This document shows positions 5,459-38,391 of a stretch of DNA of 38,391 nucleotides, piece by piece (within the stretch, counting starts at the first letter, position 1; each line of letters starts with the position of its first letter). The stretch spans positions 1-38,391 of the forward strand of contig JAKEFJ010000087.1 in the NCBI GenBank assembly GCA_022616665.1, written 5' to 3'. The translations under genes were made by a program, and so were the position numbers. This DNA comes from Acidobacteriota bacterium. Lineage in GTDB: Bacteria; Acidobacteriota; Polarisedimenticolia; Gp22-AA2; AA152. A model generated the notes under the pieces. It ran no database searches. It was not told the DNA's origin and saw only the letters and a program-made list of their open reading frames with translations.

Positions 5459-6951
5459 CCCTGCTCACCGCCCTGCGGGGCGACCTCTCCAACCAAAAAG
5501 CCGATCTGATCATCCACTTCCAGTTCGAGGGAGAATCGGCTCCCTCAACGGTTTCGCACCCGTCGCTGCGCTCGGCGCTGGCGAGCGTGTTGAAACTGGA
5601 CGGATTCGAAGGCAAATCCGATGCCGCGGTCCTCTGGCATTCCAACGGCAAGCACCCCGCGTCCCGCTACCTGGTGATGGGGCTTGGAGAAGGCAGGAAG
5701 CTCAGCCGCGAAACCCTGTGGCGCGCCTGCGCCGCAGCGGGGTTTCGGGCCACGACGCTGAAGGCGCGCACCACGGGCATGGCGTTGTCCACTGGAAATT
5801 GGCACCTCTCACCGGAAGATGCCGCTGAAATCGCGGCGGGCGGATTCCTGCATGGCTGCTATCGCTTCGACAAATACCTGAGCTCACCCAGCAGGGGGGC
5901 GGAGCCTTCGGAGCTCGTGTTGGGAATGGGCAGGACCGATCCCGCCAAGATTCGCCAGCCGCTGGAGGAGGTCCGGGTGGTGGACCGGGTCGTGCGCCTG
6001 GCTCGGGATCTGGTATCGGAACACCCGGGGCACCTGCATCCGGTGAGGATGTCGGAAGTGGCGACTTCCGAAGCGAAGAAGGCCGGCGTGAAGTGCCGAG
6101 TCATGGAGGAAGCTGAACTGGAGCGCCTTGGAATGGGAGGGATGCTGGGGGTGTCCCGAGGCTCCGAGCACCCCGCCGTGATGATTCATCTTCACCATCC
6201 GCCCCGCCCGGCGTCTCGCAAGAAGCCCAGGATCGTGCTGGTTGGCAAGGGTGTCACCTTCGATACCGGTGGGATCTCCCTCAAGCAGCCCGATGGCATG
6301 GAGGCCATGAAGGCGGACATGTCCGGAGCCGCCGCGGTGCTTGCCACCCTCCTGGCCCTGCCCGGTCTTAAGGTTGAGATGGAGGTCCACGGGCTGTTGA
6401 TGATGGTGGAGAACATGCCCGACGGGAGGGCGATTCGCCCCGGCGACATCCTGCGCATCTTCAACGGCAAGACGGTGGAGATCAAGAGCACGGACGCAGA
6501 GGGGAGGCTGATTCTGGCGGATGGGCTCTCCTGGGCCTGCAAGACCATCCGGCCCGACTATCTGGTGGACCTGGCGACTCTGACGGGGGCTTGCATGGTG
6601 GCCCTGGGACCGGGGTGCACCGGAGTGATGGGAAACAACGACGCCTTCGTCAAAAAGGTGCTGGAGGCGGCGGGGGATGCGGCAGAGCGGATGTGGCAGC
6701 TTCCGCTTCTCCCGGAATACCGGGAGCACATCCAATCGGATGTGGCCGATGTGAAAAATTCCGGCATCCGCTACGGCGGCGCCATCACCGCCGGGCTGTT
6801 CCTACAGGAATTCGTGAAGCCTTCGGTCGCCTGGGCCCACCTGGACATCGCAGGGCCCGCCTTTTTCGAGAGCGGATACGGCTACGCTCCCAAGGGCGCC
6901 ACCGGCCATGGTGTGCGCACGCTCCTGCGCCTGATTCGCGCTCTGGCCTGA
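5455..6951 (+). CDS. pepA: Leucyl aminopeptidase (M17)
   Basis: 'VGKGVTFDTGGISLKQPDGMEAMKADMSGAAAVL', 'NTDAEGRL'-type motif 'STDAEGRLILADGL'; TTG start overlaps the dxs stop. Confidence 0.95.
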   Translation: MTLLTALRGDLSNQKADLIIHFQFEGESAPSTVSHPSLRSALASVLKLDGFEGKSDAAVLWHSNGKHPASRYLVMGLGEGRKLSRETLWRACAAAGFRATTLKARTTGMALSTGNWHLSPEDAAEIAAGGFLHGCYRFDKYLSSPSRGAEPSELVLGMGRTDPAKIRQPLEEVRVVDRVVRLARDLVSEHPGHLHPVRMSEVATSEAKKAGVKCRVMEEAELERLGMGGMLGVSRGSEHPAVMIHLHHPPRPASRKKPRIVLVGKGVTFDTGGISLKQPDGMEAMKADMSGAAAVLATLLALPGLKVEMEVHGLLMMVENMPDGRAIRPGDILRIFNGKTVEIKSTDAEGRLILADGLSWACKTIRPDYLVDLATLTGACMVALGPGCTGVMGNNDAFVKKVLEAAGDAAERMWQLPLLPEYREHIQSDVADVKNSGIRYGGAITAGLFLQEFVKPSVAWAHLDIAGPAFFESGYGYAPKGATGHGVRTLLRLIRALA

Positions 6952-27289: not shown

Positions 27290-28282
27290 ATGAGCACCGG
27301 AACCCTGGAGCGCATCGCCCCTCCGGCCTATGCGCAGGTCGACGAGGAGCGCGAGGTTTCCCTCAAACAGGAGATCCGCAGTCTGGCCAGCGAGCGTCAG
27401 GCGATCATCCTGGCGCACAATTACCAGCTCCCCGAAGTCCAGGATGTGGCGGATTTCGTGGGAGACTCGCTGGGGCTCGCCCTGGAGGCGCAACGAGATC
27501 CCCGCCAGACCATCGTCTTCTGCGGTGTCCATTTCATGGCCGAATCGGCCAAGATTCTCAACCCCGGCAAGCGGGTGCTCCTGCCCAGCCTGGCGGCCGG
27601 ATGCTCGCTTTCCGATTCCATCACCGCCGACTCCCTGGAGGACTGGAAGCAGCGCTATCCGGGGCGCGCGGTGGTGACTTACGTGAACTCCTCCGCCGAA
27701 GTGAAGGCCCAATCCGACATCTGCTGCACTTCGGCCAACGCCGTCTCCGTCATCCGGAGCCTGTCTCAACGGAAAATCCTCTTCACCCCGGATCGAAACC
27801 TGGGCCGCTGGGTCGCCCGCCAGGTTCCCGAGAAGGACATCGTCATCTACGATGGCTGCTGTCCCACCCATGACGTGCTGAGGGGATCGGACGTGGGCGC
27901 CGGGAAGCGCGAACGGCCAGACGCAGTGGTGATCGCCCACCCGGAATGTCGCGAGGATGTGCTGGCCCTGGCGGATGAGATCTGCTCGACCACCGGAATG
28001 CATGCCGCCGTGGCGCGCCATCCCGAGGCCAAGACCTTCCTCATCGCCACCGAATGGGGCCTGGTGCACCAGCTCAAGAAGCGCTTCCCCGACAAGACCT
28101 TCATCGTGGCCGATGGGTGCATCGGCTGCCGGCTGCACTGCCCTTACATGAAGATGAACGACCTGGAAGCGGTCCTGCGCTGTGTCCGCGAGGATCGCTT
28201 CGAGATCCGGGTCGATCCAGCAGTCGCCTCTCGTGCCCGCATCGCCCTGGAGCGCATGATGGCGGTTCCCAGGGATCGATAG
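27290..28282 (+). CDS. nadA: Quinolinate synthase A
   Basis: 'AIILAHNYQLPEVQDVADFVGDSLGLA', 'CGVHFMAESAKILNP', 'TYVNSSAEVKAQSDICCTSANA', Cys ligands. Confidence 0.97.
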   Translation: MSTGTLERIAPPAYAQVDEEREVSLKQEIRSLASERQAIILAHNYQLPEVQDVADFVGDSLGLALEAQRDPRQTIVFCGVHFMAESAKILNPGKRVLLPSLAAGCSLSDSITADSLEDWKQRYPGRAVVTYVNSSAEVKAQSDICCTSANAVSVIRSLSQRKILFTPDRNLGRWVARQVPEKDIVIYDGCCPTHDVLRGSDVGAGKRERPDAVVIAHPECREDVLALADEICSTTGMHAAVARHPEAKTFLIATEWGLVHQLKKRFPDKTFIVADGCIGCRLHCPYMKMNDLEAVLRCVREDRFEIRVDPAVASRARIALERMMAVPRDR

Positions 28283-28414: not shown

Positions 28415-29932
28415 ATGAAGATCGGAACGAAGCTCACGCTTTTCCTGACACTCCCTCTCATCGTCCTGATGCTCGGCTTCGGGTATCTGAGCCAGCGCGC
28501 CAGCCGGGAACGCCTGCGCGCGGAGATGCTGCGCGAAGGAAGGGGAATCGCCCTGACGGCACGGGCGGCCCTGGAAGATTATCTGCGGGACCGGCAGATC
28601 GACGACATCCGGGAGCTGGCGGAAAAGATGAGCGGCTACGAACGGGTCGCGGGAATGCGTGTTTTCCGTCCCGACGGATCCCTGTTCACGCAGTCTCGGA
28701 GCTTGGAGGCGTTCCCGTTCGGACAGCATGCGGACCTGAGCCGGGTCTTGAGCGATGGCGCTCCGGTCGAAACTCGCCGGATGCTCGGGACCGAGCCCGT
28801 CGTGAGTTTTCTTTTCCTTCTCAGAGGACCGTCCGGAGAGCTCCTGGGAGCCGGCCAGGTTTATCAGCTCGAAGCCTACATCCGTGAGGAGTCCCGGGCG
28901 ACCAGGAATTTTCTTGCCGCGCTCACCCTGGTGATGATCCTGGGAGCAGGAGCGGTCGTGCTCACCGTGACTCGCCTGGGAGTGAGCCGTCCCATCGAAG
29001 AATTGATAAAGAGCTTCCGGGAAGTCGGGACGGGAGGAGCCGTCGCCCGCGTCGCCGTGCGTCGCCGGGACGAATTCGGGCGGCTCGCCGGGGAATTCAA
29101 CAACATGTGCCGGCGGCTGGAGGCGGCCCGGTATTCCCTGGAGGAGGAACAGGCCCAGCGCCGCCGCGTCGAGGATCACCTCCGAGACGTGGAGCCGCTG
29201 GCGACGCTCGGCCGTTTTTCCGCTGGACTGGCTCACGAAATTGGGACTCCCCTGAATGTCATCGGAGGACGCGCTGAATCGTTGCGGCGCAAGCTCTCCG
29301 GCAACGAGTTCGCGGACAGGAATCTGAGTATCATCGTCACCCAGATCGACCGGATCGCGCGCATCGTGCCCCGCATGCTGGATTTCGCCAAGGCCCGGGA
29401 GCCTCAGCTGGCCCCCACCCAGGTGAGTCGGTTGCTCAGGCGGGTGCTGGAGTTTCTGGCCGAGCGCTTCGAGGAGGCGGGGGTGGAGGTGCGAGCGAAT
29501 CTCCCTCTCGAATCCCCTGCGGTGCTGGTGGATTCCGACCAGATGTACGAGGTCTTCCTGAACCTGATCACGAACGCCGTCGACGCCATGCCCCAGGGAG
29601 GGATGCTCCGGGTGGAGGCCAAGGCGTGTCACGCCCTCCCTCCGGAACGCCGGATGGAGGCGGGCCCCTTCCTGGAGGTTTCGGTTGAGGACTCGGGGAC
29701 GGGAATACGCCGCGAGCACCTCGACAGAATCTTCGACCCGTTCTTCACGACCAAGGGAGTGGGCAAAGGATCGGGTTTGGGGCTCTCCGTTTCCCGGGGA
29801 ATCGTCAGGAGGCACGGGGGCTGGATTGAGGTGAAGAGCCAGGAGGGCCGCGGGACCCGGTTCACCGTCTATCTTCCGGTCCACCAAGTGGCCTCACTCC
29901 CGCTCGGGGCTGCGGAAGGAGGGGGGGCATGA
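28415..29932 (+). CDS. Sensor histidine kinase (two TM, HAMP, HisKA, HATPase; NtrB-like)
   Basis: 'KFSAGLAHEIGTPLN'-type H-box 'GRFSAGLAHEIGTPLNVIGGRAESL', 'VFLNLITNAVDAMPQGG', 'DSGTGIRREHLDRIFDPFFTTKGVGKGSGLGL'. Confidence 0.95.
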   Translation: MKIGTKLTLFLTLPLIVLMLGFGYLSQRASRERLRAEMLREGRGIALTARAALEDYLRDRQIDDIRELAEKMSGYERVAGMRVFRPDGSLFTQSRSLEAFPFGQHADLSRVLSDGAPVETRRMLGTEPVVSFLFLLRGPSGELLGAGQVYQLEAYIREESRATRNFLAALTLVMILGAGAVVLTVTRLGVSRPIEELIKSFREVGTGGAVARVAVRRRDEFGRLAGEFNNMCRRLEAARYSLEEEQAQRRRVEDHLRDVEPLATLGRFSAGLAHEIGTPLNVIGGRAESLRRKLSGNEFADRNLSIIVTQIDRIARIVPRMLDFAKAREPQLAPTQVSRLLRRVLEFLAERFEEAGVEVRANLPLESPAVLVDSDQMYEVFLNLITNAVDAMPQGGMLRVEAKACHALPPERRMEAGPFLEVSVEDSGTGIRREHLDRIFDPFFTTKGVGKGSGLGLSVSRGIVRRHGGWIEVKSQEGRGTRFTVYLPVHQVASLPLGAAEGGGA

Positions 29933-31278
29933 GCGGGATGGGCCGGATTCTGGTTGTGGAGGACGACGAGGAGATGCGCCGCCTCCTCGAGGAGGAGCTC
30001 ATCGAGGCGGGACACTCGGTGCTCACCTCGGGCACCGGCTCCAGCGCGCTGGAATGCCTGGAGCATGCCGAGGTGGATCTGGTCGTGACCGATCTGATGA
30101 TGCCGGGGCTGAACGGAGATGAGCTCCTCGCCAGGGTGCACTCCCGCAGTCCGTTTCTCCCGGTATTGATGATCACGGCCTTCGGGAGCGTCGATTCCGC
30201 CGTGGCCGCCGTGAAGGCGGGTGCTTATCACTACCTCGTCAAGCCTTTCTCCATGGAGCAGCTGCGGGTCACGGTGGAGAATGCGCTCCGGGAGAGGCGC
30301 CTCTGGGACGAGATTCGTGAGTTGCGCGAGGCGTTGGGGGAAGGCAAATCGGCGGTCGTGGCTGAGAGTTCCGCCATGAAGGAGGTGTTGGCCCTGATTC
30401 TCCGCGCCGCGGGCGCGGACACCCCCGTGCTGCTGCTCGGCGAGAGCGGCACCGGGAAGGAGATCCTGGCCCGGCTCCTGCATGCCGAGGGGAGGCGCCG
30501 CGATTGCCGTTTCATGGCGATCAATTGCTCGGCGATTCCGGAAGCGCTGCTTGAAAGCCAACTCTTCGGGCATCGCCGCGGCTCGTTCACCGACGCCAAG
30601 GAGGATCGGCGCGGCCTGTTCCAGGAGGCGGAGGGAGGAACCCTGTTCTTGGATGAGATCGGGGACATGCCGGTCTCCTTGCAGGCCAAGATCCTGCGCG
30701 TGCTCCAAGAGAAGGAGATCCATCCTGTGGGTGCGCCGGCGCCCCTCAAAGTGAATGCCCGGGTGGTGGCCGCCACGCACCGGAATCTGGAGAGCCTGAT
30801 GGAATCCGGACGGTTCCGGCAGGATCTTTACTACCGACTGAATGTCATCGCCGTGCAGGTTCCCCCCCTGAGGGAGCGGCCCGACGACATCCTGCCCCTC
30901 GCCGCTCACTTCCTGGGTAAGCACGGGCGGCGTTTGGGGCGGACAAACTGCACGCTCTCTCCAGAGGTGGTGGAGGCTCTGAGGCGATACGCCTGGCCCG
31001 GCAATGTGCGGGAACTCGAAAATGCCATTGAACGGGCTCTGGTCCTGGGGCGGGACGACGTAATCTGGCTCCACGATCTGCCTGAAACGCTCGCTGTCCC
31101 CAGGCACTCCAAGGAGCCCTTGGAAGGCCCGCGGCCCCTCGCCGAGGTGGAGCGGGAGCACATCCTCAAGACGCTAGGAGCGGTGCAGTGGAACAAGACC
31201 GCGGCAGCCCGATTGCTCGGCATGGATCGGAAGACGCTGCACCGGAAGCTCGGCGCCTACGGAATCCGGGCTCCCTAG
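29929..31278 (+). CDS. NtrC-family sigma-54-dependent response regulator
   Basis: Receiver 'VVEDDEEMRRLL...TDLMMPGLNGDE', AAA+ 'GESGTGKEILARLLH', 'GGTLFLDEIGDMP', Fis-like HTH 'WNKTAAARLLGMDRKTLHRKL'; ATGA overlap with the kinase. Confidence 0.96.
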   Translation: MSGMGRILVVEDDEEMRRLLEEELIEAGHSVLTSGTGSSALECLEHAEVDLVVTDLMMPGLNGDELLARVHSRSPFLPVLMITAFGSVDSAVAAVKAGAYHYLVKPFSMEQLRVTVENALRERRLWDEIRELREALGEGKSAVVAESSAMKEVLALILRAAGADTPVLLLGESGTGKEILARLLHAEGRRRDCRFMAINCSAIPEALLESQLFGHRRGSFTDAKEDRRGLFQEAEGGTLFLDEIGDMPVSLQAKILRVLQEKEIHPVGAPAPLKVNARVVAATHRNLESLMESGRFRQDLYYRLNVIAVQVPPLRERPDDILPLAAHFLGKHGRRLGRTNCTLSPEVVEALRRYAWPGNVRELENAIERALVLGRDDVIWLHDLPETLAVPRHSKEPLEGPRPLAEVEREHILKTLGAVQWNKTAAARLLGMDRKTLHRKLGAYGIRAP

Positions 31279-31620: not shown

Positions 31621-31821
31621 ATGACCCCGTTCAGGCTTCAGGAGTTGCACGCCCTCGAGACTGGATCCAACAGCCCGGGCACCCTGCGCTCGAAGATCGG
31701 CGAGATGATTCTGAAGAGCACGGTCTGTCGCGCCAAGGTCGAGGCCATCAATCCCGACACGGGAGAGTATCGGGTCGTGCTGCAGGGTACGCTGGATCGG
31801 GAAGAGCCGCCGTGGAAATAG
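31621..31821 (+). CDS. Small conserved protein, paralog A of a two-member local family
   Basis: SD AAGGAG upstream; 'LRSKIGEMILKSTVCRAKVEAINPDTGEYRVVLQGTLDREE' matches 32598..32801; mostly synonymous divergence. Confidence 0.85.
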   Translation: MTPFRLQELHALETGSNSPGTLRSKIGEMILKSTVCRAKVEAINPDTGEYRVVLQGTLDREEPPWK

Positions 31822-32294
31822 ACGGCCCGGTTTGCCCCGCGGCGGAGACGGAACCCCGCCCGATAGCGGAAGTGGGTGAGCGGCGAGGGAGGGTGCTGGT
31901 GGTGGACGATGATCCGGACATGCTGGCGCTCCTCGAAGAGGCCCTGCGGGACGAAGGGTACCTGGTGGCCGGCGCCGCCGACACCCTCTCCGCCATGATC
32001 CACCTTCTGGGACGACCGGTCGATGTCCTGGTCCTGGACTGGAAGATGCCGGACCTGGACGGTTTCGTGCTGCTGGACAGTGTGCGGAGATCCCTGCCGA
32101 ACCTGCCGGTGATTTTCATCACCGCTCACAACCATCCCGACATCCAGCGTAAGGCCCTGGCGTACGGAGCATTCGGGTTTCTGGCCAAGCCGTTTCCGGT
32201 GAGGCTGCTTGTCGCCGAGATTCAGGGAGCGCTGATCAACCAGGCTCGGGAAAGGGCTTCCGTCGCCAGCGACGTCTCCCCGGAAGGGACCTGA
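31812..32294 (+). CDS. Stand-alone response regulator receiver protein (CheY-like)
   Basis: 'RVLVVDDDPDMLALLEEALRDEGYLV...VLVLDWKMPDLDGFVLLDSV...VIFITAHNHPD...GFLAKPF'; GTG start overlaps the end of paralog A by 10 nt. Confidence 0.88.
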   Translation: MEIDGPVCPAAETEPRPIAEVGERRGRVLVVDDDPDMLALLEEALRDEGYLVAGAADTLSAMIHLLGRPVDVLVLDWKMPDLDGFVLLDSVRRSLPNLPVIFITAHNHPDIQRKALAYGAFGFLAKPFPVRLLVAEIQGALINQARERASVASDVSPEGT

Positions 32295-32461
32295 CGCTTT
32301 TTCGGAGGAAATCATGCAAGTGCAAACACGAAACCACAAGGTCTCGGCCCACGCCGGGAAGGATCCTCGAGCGAGCACCATCCCTCGCGGGCCGGTGTTC
32401 AGCGTATTCCCCCACCCCCGACTCAAGGGCTCCCTCCGAGGCGTGGGCCCCTCTTCTTACC

Positions 32462-32507
32462 GTGCCGTTCTGATCTGCCGCACCCGTGGCGGGAACAGGA
32501 ACGGCAC
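32462..32507 (+). promoter_or_regulatory. Leader stem-loop upstream of paralog B
   Basis: Perfect 9-bp inverted repeat GTGCCGTTC (32462-32470) / GAACGGCAC (32499-32507) with inner CCGC/GCGG pairing. Confidence 0.55.
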
Positions 32508-32597
32508 TTCTCGATAGCGGAGGACCCCCAAGGGTCACCCGAAGTCCACCCACCGCCGGCCACGCCCCGGCTCATCCCAGGAAGGGAGGTGATGAAA

Positions 32598-32801
32598 ATG
32601 TCCAAGATCCACGTCCACAACCTGCGCTCCCTCGAGAATTCTCCCACATCGCCTGCGAGACTTCGAACCAAGATTGGTGAAGTCATCCTTCACAGCGCGA
32701 TCGCGCGCGCCAAAGTGGAGGCCCTCAACCCCGAGACCGGCGAGTACCGCGTCGTGCTCCAGGGAACCCTGGATCGAGACGAATTCGAATTCGAGAGCTG
32801 A
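32598..32801 (+). CDS. Small conserved protein, paralog B
   Basis: SD GGGAGGTG; 'LRTKIGEVILHSAIARAKVEALNPETGEYRVVLQGTLDRDE'. Confidence 0.87.
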   Translation: MSKIHVHNLRSLENSPTSPARLRTKIGEVILHSAIARAKVEALNPETGEYRVVLQGTLDRDEFEFES

Positions 32802-32810
32802 GAGTTTTCT

Positions 32811-33638
32811 ATGCATAGAAGAGCTTCGGGTGAGCCTGGGGGGTCCTCCCGCAAGGGTCGGACCCCCTCGGCGAGTGCCATGGGGATGCCGGAAGTCAGC
32901 ATCTCGGAAATCCAGCACGGAACGCTTCCCCTAGCCAGTCGGCTCAATCCCAGATTTGCTCCGGACACTCCGTTGCTCCTGGCCACTCTCAAGATTCGCT
33001 GGGCCCCGAGGAATCCCCAGAGAGCCATCGCCGACCTCGAGAAGCGTCTCCTGGCGTTCTCCCCCGGATTCCGCCATCACGAGTGCCGCGGCATGGGGAT
33101 GTACCACGTTTTCTCGCACGCCGGCGGGAATGGCAAATCCCACGCTGGAGGCGAGGAGAGGGCCGCTTCGTCCGGGAAGCTGGAGGGATTCGACGCGGCT
33201 TTGGCACTTGCCCATCTCCTGGAGCATGCGGTCATCGATTTCCTGAGCGAGGTCACCGGTGAGATGACATGCAGTGGAATCACCGGAGCGCACCGAAGCG
33301 TCTCCCATCGGTACGATCTGTTGGTGGAATGCCGGGAACTCGAAATCGGGTGCTGCTGTCTGGCCTTGGCCCTCGGCTGGATCCAGGGTCTGTTTCGAGG
33401 GCATCCGATGGGATCGGCCGAGAAGGATGTACTCTCGCTGCTGCGATGGATGCACCGCCGCGCGTCCCCACCTGTGTTCGCGAGTCGAGTGGCAGGGGTT
33501 CTGGGGTGGAGCGAGGACCGGGCGGAAAGAGCCCTGGCGGCGCTGCAGCAGACGGGCTATCTGGAATCCACGGCGTACGCGATGAACCTCAGCGGACTGC
33601 CTGCCTACCGCCCACGCCGGCTGTCGCAGGGAGCTTGA
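32811..33638 (+). CDS. Free-standing protein resembling the cyanophycin synthetase N-terminal domain, with a putative C-terminal winged-helix segment
   Basis: 'LAHLLEHAVIDFLSEVTGEMT...HRYDLLVECRELEIGCCCLALALGWIQGLF' parallels the CphA-N pattern 'HIVEHVALELQELAGM...YQVVIEYLNEEAGRYAGRAAVRL'; the real start may be 32880 or later. Confidence 0.6.
   Translation: MHRRASGEPGGSSRKGRTPSASAMGMPEVSISEIQHGTLPLASRLNPRFAPDTPLLLATLKIRWAPRNPQRAIADLEKRLLAFSPGFRHHECRGMGMYHVFSHAGGNGKSHAGGEERAASSGKLEGFDAALALAHLLEHAVIDFLSEVTGEMTCSGITGAHRSVSHRYDLLVECRELEIGCCCLALALGWIQGLFRGHPMGSAEKDVLSLLRWMHRRASPPVFASRVAGVLGWSEDRAERALAALQQTGYLESTAYAMNLSGLPAYRPRRLSQGA
32839..32867 (+). other. Hairpin with GCAA (GNRA) tetraloop downstream of paralog B
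   Basis: GGGGGTCC-T-CCC-GCAA-GGG-TC-GGACCCCC. Confidence 0.6.
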
Positions 33639-33642
33639 ATCC

Positions 33643-34107
33643 CTAGGCCAGCTTTTTCAGCTCTTCCAGGATGATCTGATTGTCCGGCTGCTTTCGGAGC
33701 TCGTTGACGGTGCTGAGCCGGATGGTCCCCTGCTTGTCGATGAGAAAAAGCGCCCGCTCGGGAAAACCTTCCTCGCGCAGCACTCCGTATTTCCTCGCCA
33801 CCTCGCCATGGGGATAAAAATCGCTGAGCACGGGAATGTTGACGCCCCCCATGGAGTCCACCCAGGCCTTATGGGCCGCGCCATGGCCGATCCCGATGGC
33901 GAGCACCTGGCAGTCGGCGGCCTCGAATTTCGCCAAATCGTCCCGGTAGGAGGGAATCTGACAGGAGCAGACCGGCGTGAAGGCGAGGGGGAAGAAAGCC
34001 AGGAGAACGTTCTTCTCGCCGCGAAATTGGGAGAGGGCAAACTCCGCCCCATCGAAATTCTTGAGCTTGAAATCGGGAGCGGGAGTGCCGGGAGCGAGTG
34101 CAGACAT
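33643..34107 (-). CDS. Peroxiredoxin (AhpC/TSA, Bcp/AhpE-like)
   Basis: 'APDFKLKNFDGAEFALSQFRGEKNVLLAFFPLAFTPVCSCQIPSYRDDLAKFEAADCQVLAI'. Confidence 0.92.
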   Translation of the reverse strand: MSALAPGTPAPDFKLKNFDGAEFALSQFRGEKNVLLAFFPLAFTPVCSCQIPSYRDDLAKFEAADCQVLAIGIGHGAAHKAWVDSMGGVNIPVLSDFYPHGEVARKYGVLREEGFPERALFLIDKQGTIRLSTVNELRKQPDNQIILEELKKLA

Positions 34108-34254
34108 GGCCGATTCTCCAGAGAGCTTCGCTGAACGAAACAAATTGATGATACAGGTAGAGCCGGCATTATACCCGAAGCCCTCCGCCCCCAGGAGCCG
34201 ACAGATTGATCCAGCCCGGAGCCACCGATTCGGCGCCGCACCACTTTTTGTGAC

Positions 34255-35106
34255 TTAGGGAACGGGGATCTCGTCCTGAATGGTCAGGGCGTAGCGCAGC
34301 GCCTCCAGGGCACCTTCCTCATGGAAAAGATCGTGGAGAAAGGCGTCCAGCTTCGGGTCAGGCCCGTGGGGAAGCTGGACTCGAAGGGAGAACTCCGCGC
34401 CCCGCCCAAGCCCCAGCTTGCGTTGATGCAGGCACACGTACGGAAAGCTCCCGCGCTCCAGGTGGTCCTCCAGGAGCGTGCGCAAAGCGGCGCGGAAGAT
34501 TTCATAGGAGATCGTCCCCGGCGTGCCGGGCTTCTCGAAATAGAGCACGGCCCACTGGCAGGGTCCGCTGCGTCGCTCGCCCATCTCCATCACTCGGTTT
34601 CGCAGCATGAACCCGGCGCCGGAGATGGCCCGAATCTGCTTCCCGTGTACCCCCCGGTCAATCCCCACCATGTCGCGAACGGCGATCTCGATGAAATCCA
34701 GCGAGGGGCTCCCCCACAGGTAGAACTCAGACTCCTGCAGGACACCGGGTTTGCCGGGATCAAAGCCGAGTCCCTCCAGGTACTTTTTCCCTTCTGGCAG
34801 GTGCCTCAGGAGGGACGGGCCCCCCAGGTCGGGGAAGAGAAACCGATACTGACGGGAGTCGAAGGGTGGATAGCGCCGGGGATCGGCCTGCGGACGGAAA
34901 GAGTCACCGGGGAAGGTCGAGACGGCTTCGTGCTCGGCGAGGGCCTCGGACAATCGATGGGTCTCCTGGCGGATGCGCGAATGCAAGGCCAGGAGATTCT
35001 GCGTGTACTCGGCTTCGCCCAGGTCTGGCCACGCCTGGCTCAAGATGCTGTAAATCTGAACCGGCGGGTGATGCAGGCGCCGGATGGCCTCCCTCAGATC
35101 GCTCAT
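34255..35106 (-). CDS. Hypothetical protein of unknown function
   Basis: Long ORF coupled to queG by an ATGA overlap; no motif recognised. Confidence 0.65.
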   Translation of the reverse strand: MSDLREAIRRLHHPPVQIYSILSQAWPDLGEAEYTQNLLALHSRIRQETHRLSEALAEHEAVSTFPGDSFRPQADPRRYPPFDSRQYRFLFPDLGGPSLLRHLPEGKKYLEGLGFDPGKPGVLQESEFYLWGSPSLDFIEIAVRDMVGIDRGVHGKQIRAISGAGFMLRNRVMEMGERRSGPCQWAVLYFEKPGTPGTISYEIFRAALRTLLEDHLERGSFPYVCLHQRKLGLGRGAEFSLRVQLPHGPDPKLDAFLHDLFHEEGALEALRYALTIQDEIPVP

Positions 35107-36158
35107 CCCGGAGGCCCGGTGGACACCTGCGCTGCGGAGCTGCTTTCGGCGCCCAGGCGGCGAAGCGCCCATTGCACGTGCTCTTGGATGAGCGGGTCCG
35201 GGATTGCCAGTGCGTCCCGCAGCGGCTCCACGGCCCTGGGATCGCCGGAATTGCCCAGGGCTACGGCGACGTTTCGCACCAAGCGTCTCCAGCCAGTCCG
35301 GCGCAATGGAGTGCCCGCGAAACGGAGATGAAACTCCTCCCGGCTCATCCGCAGCAGCTCAGCGAGAACGGGGGCATCGCCGCCGGCTTCGAATTCCTTG
35401 TCCCCCTGGACCATGCCTTGGTTCCAGGGACAAACCTCCTGGCACACATCGCAACCGAACACCCAGTTTCCCATCCCGGCACGCAGCTCCTCGGGAATCA
35501 CCCCGCGATGCTCGATGGTGAGATAGGAAATGCACTTGCGCGAATCGAGGACATACGGCTCGGAGAAAGCCTGGGTGGGGCATGCCTCCAGGCAGCGTGT
35601 GCAGCTGCCGCACCGATCGGTCACGGTAGCCGAGTCTGGCTCCAGCTCCAGATCGATCAGCAGCTCGCCTAGAAAGAACCAGGATCCCGACTCGGGGTCG
35701 ATGAGGTTGGTGTGTTTCCCCTGCCATCCCAGGCCGGCGGAAGCGGCCCAGGGCTTTTCCAGGACGGCGCCGGTGTCCACTACCGGTGAAGACCGAGCCC
35801 CCGGTGAAATCTCCGCGAGAAACTCTCCCAGTCGTCCCAGCCGTCGCTTCATCACCTCGTGATAGTCCTTTCCACGCGCGTAGCGGGAGATGCGGGCGTT
35901 CTGGGGAAGAGAATTCTCAGGCTCGAGGGAGGCATAGGGGAGCGCCGCTACAAGAATGGTCCGGGCCCAGGGGGCCAGGCTGGTGGGATCGGCGCGTTCC
36001 TGCGTACGGCGATGCAGCCAGGCCATGTCCCCCGCATAGTCCAGGTCCAGCCACAGCCTCAATCGCTCACCTGCCGGATGCGCGGCGGGGGATGCGAACC
36101 CGATCCGGGCAAAGCCCAGCCGCAGGGCTTCGTGGCGCAGGCGCTCTTTGAGGTGCAT
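35103..36158 (-). CDS. queG: Epoxyqueuosine reductase QueG
   Basis: 'DRCGSCTRCLEACPTQAF', 'CDVCQEVCPWNQ', 'RKCISYLTIEHRG', C-terminal HEAT-like repeats. Confidence 0.96.
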   Translation of the reverse strand: MHLKERLRHEALRLGFARIGFASPAAHPAGERLRLWLDLDYAGDMAWLHRRTQERADPTSLAPWARTILVAALPYASLEPENSLPQNARISRYARGKDYHEVMKRRLGRLGEFLAEISPGARSSPVVDTGAVLEKPWAASAGLGWQGKHTNLIDPESGSWFFLGELLIDLELEPDSATVTDRCGSCTRCLEACPTQAFSEPYVLDSRKCISYLTIEHRGVIPEELRAGMGNWVFGCDVCQEVCPWNQGMVQGDKEFEAGGDAPVLAELLRMSREEFHLRFAGTPLRRTGWRRLVRNVAVALGNSGDPRAVEPLRDALAIPDPLIQEHVQWALRRLGAESSSAAQVSTGPPG

Positions 36159-36199
36159 GGGATGGACTCCGGCCCCGGATGATACCACTCCCGGATGAG

Positions 36200-36796
36200 T
36201 CAGGTCTTACGGCGGGAGTGCCGAGGTCTCCTGGAATCTGCGAGCGGCGGCAAGGACGAGGGTGTCACGGGCAGCCAAATCGCGGTATGCGGGAGCCACA
36301 CATCTTCCGAGAGTCGCTCCACGATAATCAGGCGATCCGCCAGCCAGCGTTTCTCTCGAGCTTCGGTGAACAGCCGGCGCGACAGAGCCAAGGCTCGCAG
36401 GAGGCGCCTGGAGTCGAGTTTTTGCCCCAGGGTCAGATGGGGAACGTAGGGGAAGACCTCCTCCCCCTTCAAGGTTCCTCGGGAGAGGCGTCGGTGCAGT
36501 CGCTCCAGCTCGTCCCTGCCGGCTCTCAGGCTGGCGAAGACCACGGGCATGACCGGGCGAAACGTCCGGATGGCCCCCAGGGAAATCGGAAATGAGCGGG
36601 ATCTCAGGGCGGCTCGAGCCACCGCCTCGACCACTTCGCGACGGGAGAGGTGGACCTCCCGAGGTGGAAGCACCGTCACGTGCGGTCCGATGCGCTGGAA
36701 GTTGGGATCGTAGGGGCGGCGAATCCGATCGGCAAGACGGGAGAGCCGTTCCGGCACCGGCAACACGATGCCCACGATCCTGCCGCGACGGGTCAC
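36200..36796 (-). CDS. 2'-5' RNA ligase family protein (2H phosphoesterase)
   Basis: Two HxT motifs 'GPHVTVLPP' and 'PHLTLGQKL'. Confidence 0.85.
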   Translation of the reverse strand: MTRRGRIVGIVLPVPERLSRLADRIRRPYDPNFQRIGPHVTVLPPREVHLSRREVVEAVARAALRSRSFPISLGAIRTFRPVMPVVFASLRAGRDELERLHRRLSRGTLKGEEVFPYVPHLTLGQKLDSRRLLRALALSRRLFTEAREKRWLADRLIIVERLSEDVWLPHTAIWLPVTPSSLPPLADSRRPRHSRRKT

Positions 36797-38013
36797 GCTT
36801 CCATCTCTCCCGGGATCCGGACGGCGTAGCCCAAGCTCCGGAGTCGCTCGACGATCATTCTTCCGTGGCCGGGGTCGCGGGTTTCCAGCAGGATTTCCAG
36901 CTCAGTGCCTTCCAGCGGCAACTGCCATCCCGCCCGGTAATGCTTCACGTCCAGGACGTTGGCGCCCGACTCCGCCAGAATCAGGAGGACTTTTGCCAGC
37001 TGGCCCGGCTTGTCCACGATCTCCACGCGCAACAGAATGAGACGGCCCTCGTGGGTCAATCCGCGCTCCAGCATACGGATGAAGAAATTGGTGTCGATGT
37101 TGCCTCCCGAGAGCACCACCGAGATCACGCCGGTCATCCGCGGAATCTTATCGGAAAGCAGGGCCGCGACTCCCACGGCTCCCGCCGCCTCCACCACGAG
37201 CTTCGACTTCTCCATGAGCACCACGATGGCGCGGCTGATCTCTTCGTCGTCCACCAGAACCATCTCGTCGAGGTGATCGCGGAGAATCTCGAAAGGGGCA
37301 TCTCCCACGCGTCCCACGCGGATTCCATCGGCGATGGTGCGGGGCTGCGCCACGCTGACTGGGTGACCGGCTTCCAGGGCACGAACCATCGAGGGACATC
37401 CCGATGCCTGCACGCCAACGACGCGCATGCCGGGCTTTTGCGATTTGACGGCGAGGGCGACTCCGGCTGCGAGCCCGCCGCCCCCCACCGGAACCACGAC
37501 CATGCCGCAATCGGGGAGATCGTGCAGGATCTCGATTCCCACCGTCCCCTGACCGGCGATGATCTTGGGATCGTCGTAGCCATGAATGAATGTGAGGCCG
37601 TGTCTGTCGCTCTCCTCGCGCGCCACCCAGAGCGCTTCGTCCAGGCTGGACCCCTGCAAGATCACAGTCGGGCCGAACGAGCGGGTCCTCTCCACTTTGT
37701 TGAGCGGGGTTTCTTCCGGCATCACGATGGTGGCCCTCAGGCCCAGAAGCTGGGCCGCCAAGGCCACTCCCTGAGCATGATTTCCCGCGGATGCGGCCAC
37801 CACGCCCGCCGCTTTCTCCTGAGGGGTGAGCCCCACCATCCGATTGCATGCGCCGCGCAGCTTAAAAGAGCCGGTGCGCTGGAGATTCTCCGGCTTGAGA
37901 TGGACCTGGCGATCCACCAGCTGGCTGAGAGTGTAGGAGTAAATATGAGGCGTGGGGCGGACGAAATTCTCCACCACCAGCGCCGCTTCCTGAATGTCGT
38001 TCAGGCCGATCAT
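36793..38013 (-). CDS. Threonine ammonia-lyase with C-terminal ACT domain
   Basis: 'LKPENLQRTGSFKLRGACNRM', 'AASAGNHAQGVALAAQLLG', 'VPVGGGGLAAGVALAVK', ACT 'LILLRVEIVDKPGQLAKVLLILAESGANVLDVKHYRA'. Confidence 0.96.
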   Translation of the reverse strand: MIGLNDIQEAALVVENFVRPTPHIYSYTLSQLVDRQVHLKPENLQRTGSFKLRGACNRMVGLTPQEKAAGVVAASAGNHAQGVALAAQLLGLRATIVMPEETPLNKVERTRSFGPTVILQGSSLDEALWVAREESDRHGLTFIHGYDDPKIIAGQGTVGIEILHDLPDCGMVVVPVGGGGLAAGVALAVKSQKPGMRVVGVQASGCPSMVRALEAGHPVSVAQPRTIADGIRVGRVGDAPFEILRDHLDEMVLVDDEEISRAIVVLMEKSKLVVEAAGAVGVAALLSDKIPRMTGVISVVLSGGNIDTNFFIRMLERGLTHEGRLILLRVEIVDKPGQLAKVLLILAESGANVLDVKHYRAGWQLPLEGTELEILLETRDPGHGRMIVERLRSLGYAVRIPGEMEA

Positions 38014-38104
38014 GATCCCCCGATGCCGAGAAGGACGCAGAGTATAGCGAAAGGAAGAACCGCCGGTCGAACGACCGGCGTTCAACGGGACGGGAGGCCG
38101 ACGC

Positions 38105-38130
38105 CCGGCAGCCCTTTGGAGGGCTGCCGG
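38105..38130. repeat. Perfect inverted repeat (hairpin)
   Basis: CCGGCAGCCCT-TTGG-AGGGCTGCCGG, 11-bp stem. Confidence 0.7.
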
Positions 38131-38236
38131 CTCAGGGGCACCATGCAGATCAGGAGGCCCGCTAAAGCGCCGCAGAGGTGGGCGACCGGAACCGGTCCAA
38201 CTGTGGGAAGGGGATCCAGAGCTCCTGCCTCGGGCT

Positions 38237-38391
38237 TCATGTGAGGCGGGACAAGTCCCCCGGAACGTCGTAGTCCTCCAGCACCGCGGGGTCATCGCAG
38301 GGAAGCTCCAGGCGATTCTGCGCGGCGTGGACCACAAAGCGAGCGCCCTGGTCCAGAGGGGCGCTGAGCAGGTCGGGGAAGAGGGAAGCAG
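38237..38391 (-). CDS. MobA/MocA-like nucleotidyltransferase, C-terminal fragment cut by the window edge
   Basis: Manual minus-strand translation '...LFPDLLSAPLDQGARFVVHAAQNRLELPCDDPAVLEDYDVPGDLSRLT*' matches the typical C-terminus 'LFP..LL.L..DQGAR.ll......v.e.pvdDpgvl.DiDtPeDl'. Confidence 0.6.
   Translation of the reverse strand, partial: ASLFPDLLSAPLDQGARFVVHAAQNRLELPCDDPAVLEDYDVPGDLSRLT

Follow-up and report, generated by a model that had tools for sequence, protein, structure and literature searches.

M16-type peptidases bind their substrates as added β-strands. In ImmA/IrrE-type pairs, a metallopeptidase-like domain is joined to an HTH domain and a small partner is encoded alongside. 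A further metallopeptidase-like domain is found at the N-terminus of cyanophycin synthetase CphA1. In SuCphA1 its zinc is bound by C59, H79 and H83, with E82 acting as general base; when H57, C59, H79 or E82 is mutated, the domain forms primers less well or not at all (PMC9262961). Primer-dependent members of the CphA1 family that do not have this activity lose residues of the metallopeptidase-like site (PMC9262961).

The window, that is, the whole analysed stretch of 38,391 nucleotides from an Acidobacteriota bacterium, encodes a protein related to this domain, named here c1, next to several tiny genes. The relevant features are as follows.

28415..29932, + strand: sensor histidine kinase, a neighbour in this lineage only (NCBIfam AtoS/ZraS-type matches)
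29929..31278, + strand: NtrC-type sigma-54 response regulator, a lineage-specific neighbour (PF00158, PF00072, PF02954)
31621..31821, + strand: small protein A of the SM family, 66 aa (open reading frame with SD; profile E=7.6e-29; family alignment; codon analysis)
31812..32294, + strand: stand-alone response-regulator receiver (PF00072, E=5e-27)
32314..32517, + strand: T protein, 67 aa, with the motif SSYRAVLICR near the C-terminus and a variable N-terminus (SD-like cggagg; recurring motif)
32598..32801, + strand: small protein B of the SM family, 67 aa (open reading frame with SD GGAGGT; profile E=2.8e-30; family alignment; codon analysis)
32811..33638, + strand: c1, a free-standing protein resembling the cyanophycin synthetase N domain, with a predicted C-terminal winged helix (profile, PF18921, AF2/Foldseek)

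The c1 gene starts 9 nt past B. Its product, taken as a single sequence, gives weak matches to cyanophycin synthetase, PF18921 scoring 18.6 bits against a gathering score of 27. Across the family, whose members are about 205–330 aa long, PF18921 is matched by 27 of 27 (best E=1.6e-11), and the family profile matches the PDB chain of CphA1 (7wac) with E=6.7e-7. The AF2 model of c1 (pLDDT 85, pTM 0.82) has CphA1 structures as its best Foldseek matches, with prob 1.0. These profile and model comparisons firmly establish that c1 is homologous to the N domain of cyanophycin synthetase and stands alone. The preliminary description had overlooked this homology, together with the small gene between A and B. 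PF18921 and HTH-type matches are the only ones to stand out among the domain matches of c1; ATP-grasp and Mur-ligase domains are absent, and no c1 member matches the M16 families in Pfam.

The invariant columns of c1 are P85, H90, C92, H135, E138, H139, S155, T158 and D169. The metal site HxC...HxxEH is complete and invariant in 27 diverse members, and H90, C92, H135, E138 and H139 correspond to SuCphA1 H57, C59, H79, E82 and H83. The C-terminal part is modelled as helices and strands that match MarR, CodY and Z-alpha folds in Foldseek; the sequence matches are weak, the HTH_24 match of one member having E=1.8e-5. This predicted winged helix is present in most c1 proteins but missing in some Zixibacteria members, of which L055 and L058 end before it, so DNA binding would not be universal for c1.

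A and B belong to a family of 66–74 aa, SM, with the core NPETGEYR[VI]VLQGTLD. They had been described from the letters alone as translated and conserved, with 13 identical, 17 synonymous and 8 non-synonymous codons counted by hand over the 38 codons from KIGE, and the codon analysis returns exactly these figures. The Nei-Gojobori values are dN 0.14, dS 1.38 and ratio 0.10 for this core, and dN 0.36, dS 1.36 and ratio 0.26 for the whole length. The remaining two frames contain stops and show no synonymous excess. In eight SM orthologue pairs from other genomes, closer than A and B are to each other, dN/dS is 0.03–0.15. Together with homologues in at least four phyla, the codon pattern confirms A and B, as far as sequence can, as real tiny genes under strong purifying selection. 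For B, an in-frame ATG is also found at 32592; the family alignment and a GGAGGT at 32585..32590 speak for 32598 as the start.

A is an extra SM copy: it follows the NtrC-like regulator and precedes the stand-alone receiver, whose likely GTG start at 31812 would overlap the end of A (GTGGAAATAG). The window's genome (2.8 Mb in 274 contigs) has a third SM copy on a different contig (G000:C94:1667-1873). In a tree built on 62 columns, with weakly resolved forks, A is nearest to L038 and L040 inside a weakly supported group, and B is nearest to L036/L035/L025/L024; A and B do not come out of this tree as the products of a recent local duplication. Most loci carry two to four SM copies in tandem, and the first and second copies tend toward separate groups within each lineage. 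The SM copies therefore appear to have diverged early in each lineage and to have kept separate identities.

About 80 SM homologues were gathered. Within the window's own phylum, Acidobacteriota, the profile finds members in 14 of 297 genomes. Across 85,462 species genomes, a scan located 33 real SM loci, all in metagenome-assembled genomes (MAGs), from Acidobacteria (many labelled ‘gp22’), Eisenbacteria, Latescibacterota, Zixibacteria, two unclassified bacteria and one ‘Planctomycetota’ MAG. This last locus (L040) comes from the sample set KW1-S15, shared with the Acidobacteria MAG L038, and may reflect a binning error. Two other matches from the scan were rejected, as neither has c1 or an SM-like open reading frame: one in Saccharospirillum (L068) and one in Riflebacteria (L069), the latter a longer unrelated protein that shares NPETGEYRV. 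No SM relatives were found in viral contigs.

Among 52 aligned SM members, M1, E13, S18, S33, T47-G-E-Y50, L54 and G56 are invariant, and no signal sequence is evident by eye. The AF2 model (pLDDT 68, moderate) consists of two helices and a β-hairpin ending in the GEYR[VI]VLQG strand. Foldseek gives no match to this model below E=0.7 and no known polymerising protein among the folds. As the preliminary description had supposed, no known family is matched: A and B have zero matches in Pfam, NCBIfam, PHROGs and PADLOC, and the profile search produced no accepted PDB match. A designed β-propeller with a nominal E=3.6e-8 was rejected as a turn-motif coincidence, the match being built from a single SVEAYDPETDEWRLV turn repeated six times, with an i-E of 250 for each copy alone. 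The idea that SM is a miniature of the helix-hairpin of c1, plausible by eye, was also rejected, Hhalign profile-profile comparison giving no SM/c1 homology. SM is best described, on sequence grounds, as a new protein family, so far met in uncultured bacteria only.

At nearly every SM locus c1 is an adjacent gene: a strong c1 match is present at 43 loci and a contig-end c1 fragment at two more, the exceptions being L025 and L037. SM genes with no c1 nearby are those of L025, G427 and one distant locus in G314. c1 lies 3′ of SM in Acidobacteria and Eisenbacteria and 5′ in Zixibacteria, and the linkage holds despite this change of order. SM and full-length c1 occur in the same 14 of 14 carriers among the 297 Acidobacteriota genomes and in the same 7 of 7 among 47 genomes of the Eisenbacteria group. 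In 134 Zixibacteria genomes, 22 have SM, 24 have c1 and 20 have both (20 of 26 carriers). The hypergeometric probabilities of co-occurrence, which are not corrected for phylogeny, are 3e-24, 2e-8 and 7e-18, respectively. The remaining matches to the c1 profile in Acidobacteriota are mostly frames of ~870–1000 codons, the size of CphA1.

Where the SM genes are lost, c1 either retains T or has decayed. Four Zixibacteria genomes (G405–G408, loci L099–L102) have an intact c1 and no SM; in three of them a 52-aa T gene ending in QKYKTVFNCSYSE.QE, with a clear YK.VFxC, directly follows c1, and the fourth has a weaker 56-aa version (YKNIFKCSYC). In four others (G305–G308, loci L103–L106), also with no SM, c1 is reduced to shortened remnants that have lost HxC and, in most, HxxEH. 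The remnants in L105 and L106 are followed by an M16 peptidase gene, like the one after the intact module of L063. One module of the Eisenbacteria group, L118 (G458:C289), looks decayed: SM1 has an in-frame TAG, the second SM reads TGQYRVVLRG, and c1 is without the CSGxTC cysteines. A 1036-aa open frame in the same genome, G458, was rejected as a fusion, being a GC-rich long frame in which the c1 frame has 312 codons. SM, T and c1 are very probably functionally coupled.

T proteins, of which the window's member sits between A and B, are about 40–190 aa long and have a variable, low-complexity body with a C-terminal YRxVLxC. The motif recurs at this position in 34 of 42 loci and in 0 of 42 on the antisense strand, with 0.15 expected from shuffles. 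Outside the motif T is weakly constrained (dN/dS 0.17–0.62 where measurable). The YR[VI]VL strand is common to T and SM, a resemblance that is short.

A further component, W, seen in 24 of 42 loci (antisense, 0 of 42), is marked by SFW[RKST]FG, or a sequence very like it, that lies close to the C-terminus or forms it. T is unseen in 8 of the 42 and W in 18, some of these loci being cut by contig ends. The W body is a helix-hairpin-helix (HHH; PF14520) in Acidobacteria and in L051, and is Lys/Arg-rich in most Zixibacteria. The following W proteins carry the strict C-terminal SFW[RKST]FG / CWWFG tag.

L022:549-1349, W protein
L028:8873-9319, W protein
L051:5480-5740, W protein
L066:6306-6500, W protein

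No W is present at the window locus; at L022, the second module in this genome, a W with the C-terminal end SFWKFGC is encoded. Another SFWRFG-like DNA match in this genome (C136) has no such open reading frame and was taken as chance. Long TRKTTRKPVTRK-type, histone-H1-like repetitive proteins are encoded directly 3′ of the SM gene or genes in the Zixibacteria loci L054 (about 6280–6700) and L109:3048-4067.

The surroundings of the module differ. The window shares with L023/L024/L035 a histidine kinase and an NtrC-type regulator, plus a receiver, ahead of the module. Many other Acidobacteria have a MinD-like ATPase, a ParA-like ATPase and an HHH/W protein in that place; one genome of the Eisenbacteria group has a MinD-like gene at the module, and in Zixibacteria the surrounding genes are unrelated. 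With flanking genes that change by lineage, the core of the module is therefore c1, T and SM. The 5′ stretch of several loci (L028:6451-8870, L031–L034, L047, L119:6988-8665) contains, by eye, a possible PD-(D/E)xK/NucS-like protein, as well as one MinD-like and one ParA-like ATPase; the MinD-like protein begins with an RRLGRGL segment reminiscent of ParB. Ordinary neighbours recognised by eye in the window are quinolinate synthase (nadA, 27290..28282), a peroxiredoxin (33643..34143, − strand), epoxyqueuosine reductase (queG, 35103..36188, − strand) and threonine dehydratase (36793..38337, − strand). The neighbourhood comparison reveals no conserved modification enzyme or exporter beside the module, and A, B, T, c1 and the W and T of L028 match no PADLOC anti-phage model.

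The conservation of SM and c1 as a module is well supported, and the sequence comparisons suggest that c1 may cleave its small neighbours. The reading preferred here, held at a little under even chances, is that the SM and T proteins are bound, and probably cleaved, by c1. In this reading c1 would be a peptidase of the inverted-motif, zinc-dependent type, or a derivative of one that binds peptides, with a groove in which the YR[VI]VLx[G/C] segment shared by SM and T would be added as a β-strand, in the manner of M16 substrates. It would most likely clip SM and T, freeing their variable tails or turning over a complex, and the SM copies would be its substrates or regulatory partners. Two roles had been proposed for A and B in the preliminary description. 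The anti-sigma or adaptor role finds no support, with no sigma factor in the conserved neighbourhood and no anti-sigma match in Pfam or NCBIfam. The other role, that of precursor-like substrates whose tails vary, has become the likelier of the two, since a metallopeptidase-like protein is the constant neighbour; but the whole 60-residue body of SM, and not merely a leader, is conserved. Since this conservation extends beyond the needs of a peptidase substrate, a stable SM/c1 complex is also possible.

A complex of SM, T and c1 might act on the chromosome or nucleoid, because c1 with its predicted winged helix and W with its HHH or basic body look nucleic-acid-binding and MinD/ParA genes flank many copies. 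The module in the window may in addition be wired to an NtrBC-type two-component system. The complete proposal would be a new system, in which a CphA1-N-type zinc peptidase with a DNA-binding domain processes two to four SM proteins and T through a common β-strand tag, together with the SFWRFG-tagged W, in nucleoid organisation or gene control; stated in full it is tentative and more doubtful than its central step.

c1 could instead be a transcription factor, with a peptidase-like domain that senses the YR[VI]VL strand by binding it, without cutting, and with SM and T as co-regulators. The predicted C-terminal winged helix, the apparent co-transcription of the small proteins with c1 and the two-component regulators 5′ of the module in the window would all fit. 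Pure binding, however, has no need of metal ligands and a general base, all of which are invariant in c1 and are among the residues lost by the inactive, primer-dependent CphA1 members (PMC9262961), and c1 of L055 and L058 stops before the winged helix; such a role seems rather unlikely. Strong SD sequences at many SM copies and the presence of two to four SM genes per locus would suit SM proteins as structural subunits that assemble into a filament, a shell or a body associated with the nucleoid. T and W, variable apart from a brief conserved tag at the C-terminus, would then be clients docked by these tags, c1 a processing or assembly factor, and the adjoining MinD- and ParA-type ATPases would position the assembly. 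These ATPases are missing from the Zixibacteria and window contexts, however, and the SM fold matches no known polymerising protein, which leaves this arrangement clearly unlikely.

A peptide-product system of the RiPP-like kind, with SM and/or T as precursors and c1 as the maturation protease, is suggested by the several small, variable-tailed genes that adjoin a peptidase-like gene. It is improbable, given that the module has no conserved modification enzyme or exporter, that T varies at its N-terminus and that SM is conserved over 60 residues. The homology of c1 to the CphA1 N domain, finally, raises the prospect that cyanophycin, or a poly-amide like it, is still the substrate of c1, with granule-associated small proteins. 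No CphA1-sized match is found in the window's genome or in the 14 Acidobacteriota genomes with SM (MAGs, some of them incomplete), and S155 and D169, invariant in c1, differ from CphA1, so that this prospect is very slight.

The module ties hypothetical tiny open reading frames of uncultured phyla to a recognisable enzyme core, giving a peptidase-partner system that is directly testable. Every carrier found is a metagenome-assembled genome, and most genes of the module are too short for routine annotation. The metallopeptidase-like domain only recently found inside cyanophycin synthetase has a free-standing, active-site-complete family with partners of its own; the CphA1 N-type domain therefore has a biology outside cyanophycin.

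No account of a free-standing CphA N domain was found in the searched literature, and no described system of c1/SM/T/W make-up in the libraries or that literature. In c1 the known domain has a new branch that stands alone; SM, T and W have no earlier description, and the module as a whole matches no known kind. Like ImmA/IrrE-type pairs, c1 joins a metallopeptidase-like domain to a predicted HTH and has small partner genes adjacent, which is an analogy only: the fold differs, the motif is HxxEH as opposed to HExxH, and the partner proteins are unrelated. With the M16 peptidases (inverzincins such as pitrilysin, insulin-degrading enzyme and PqqF-like enzymes) c1 shares HxxEH. Unlike in M16, its third ligand, by homology to CphA1, is an upstream invariant Cys and not a downstream Glu, the domain has about 160 residues, and the Pfam M16 families show no sequence match. 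The closest likeness is to the CphA1 N domain (PF18921), over which the c1 core aligns with the same fold and the same HxC...HxxEH(xxxE/D) site. Unlike cyanophycin synthetase, c1 stands alone, with no ATP-grasp or Mur-ligase domains, and usually carries a predicted winged helix; unlike CphA1, it adjoins SM, T and W, mostly in genomes with no detected CphA1, and has its own invariant Ser155 and Asp169.
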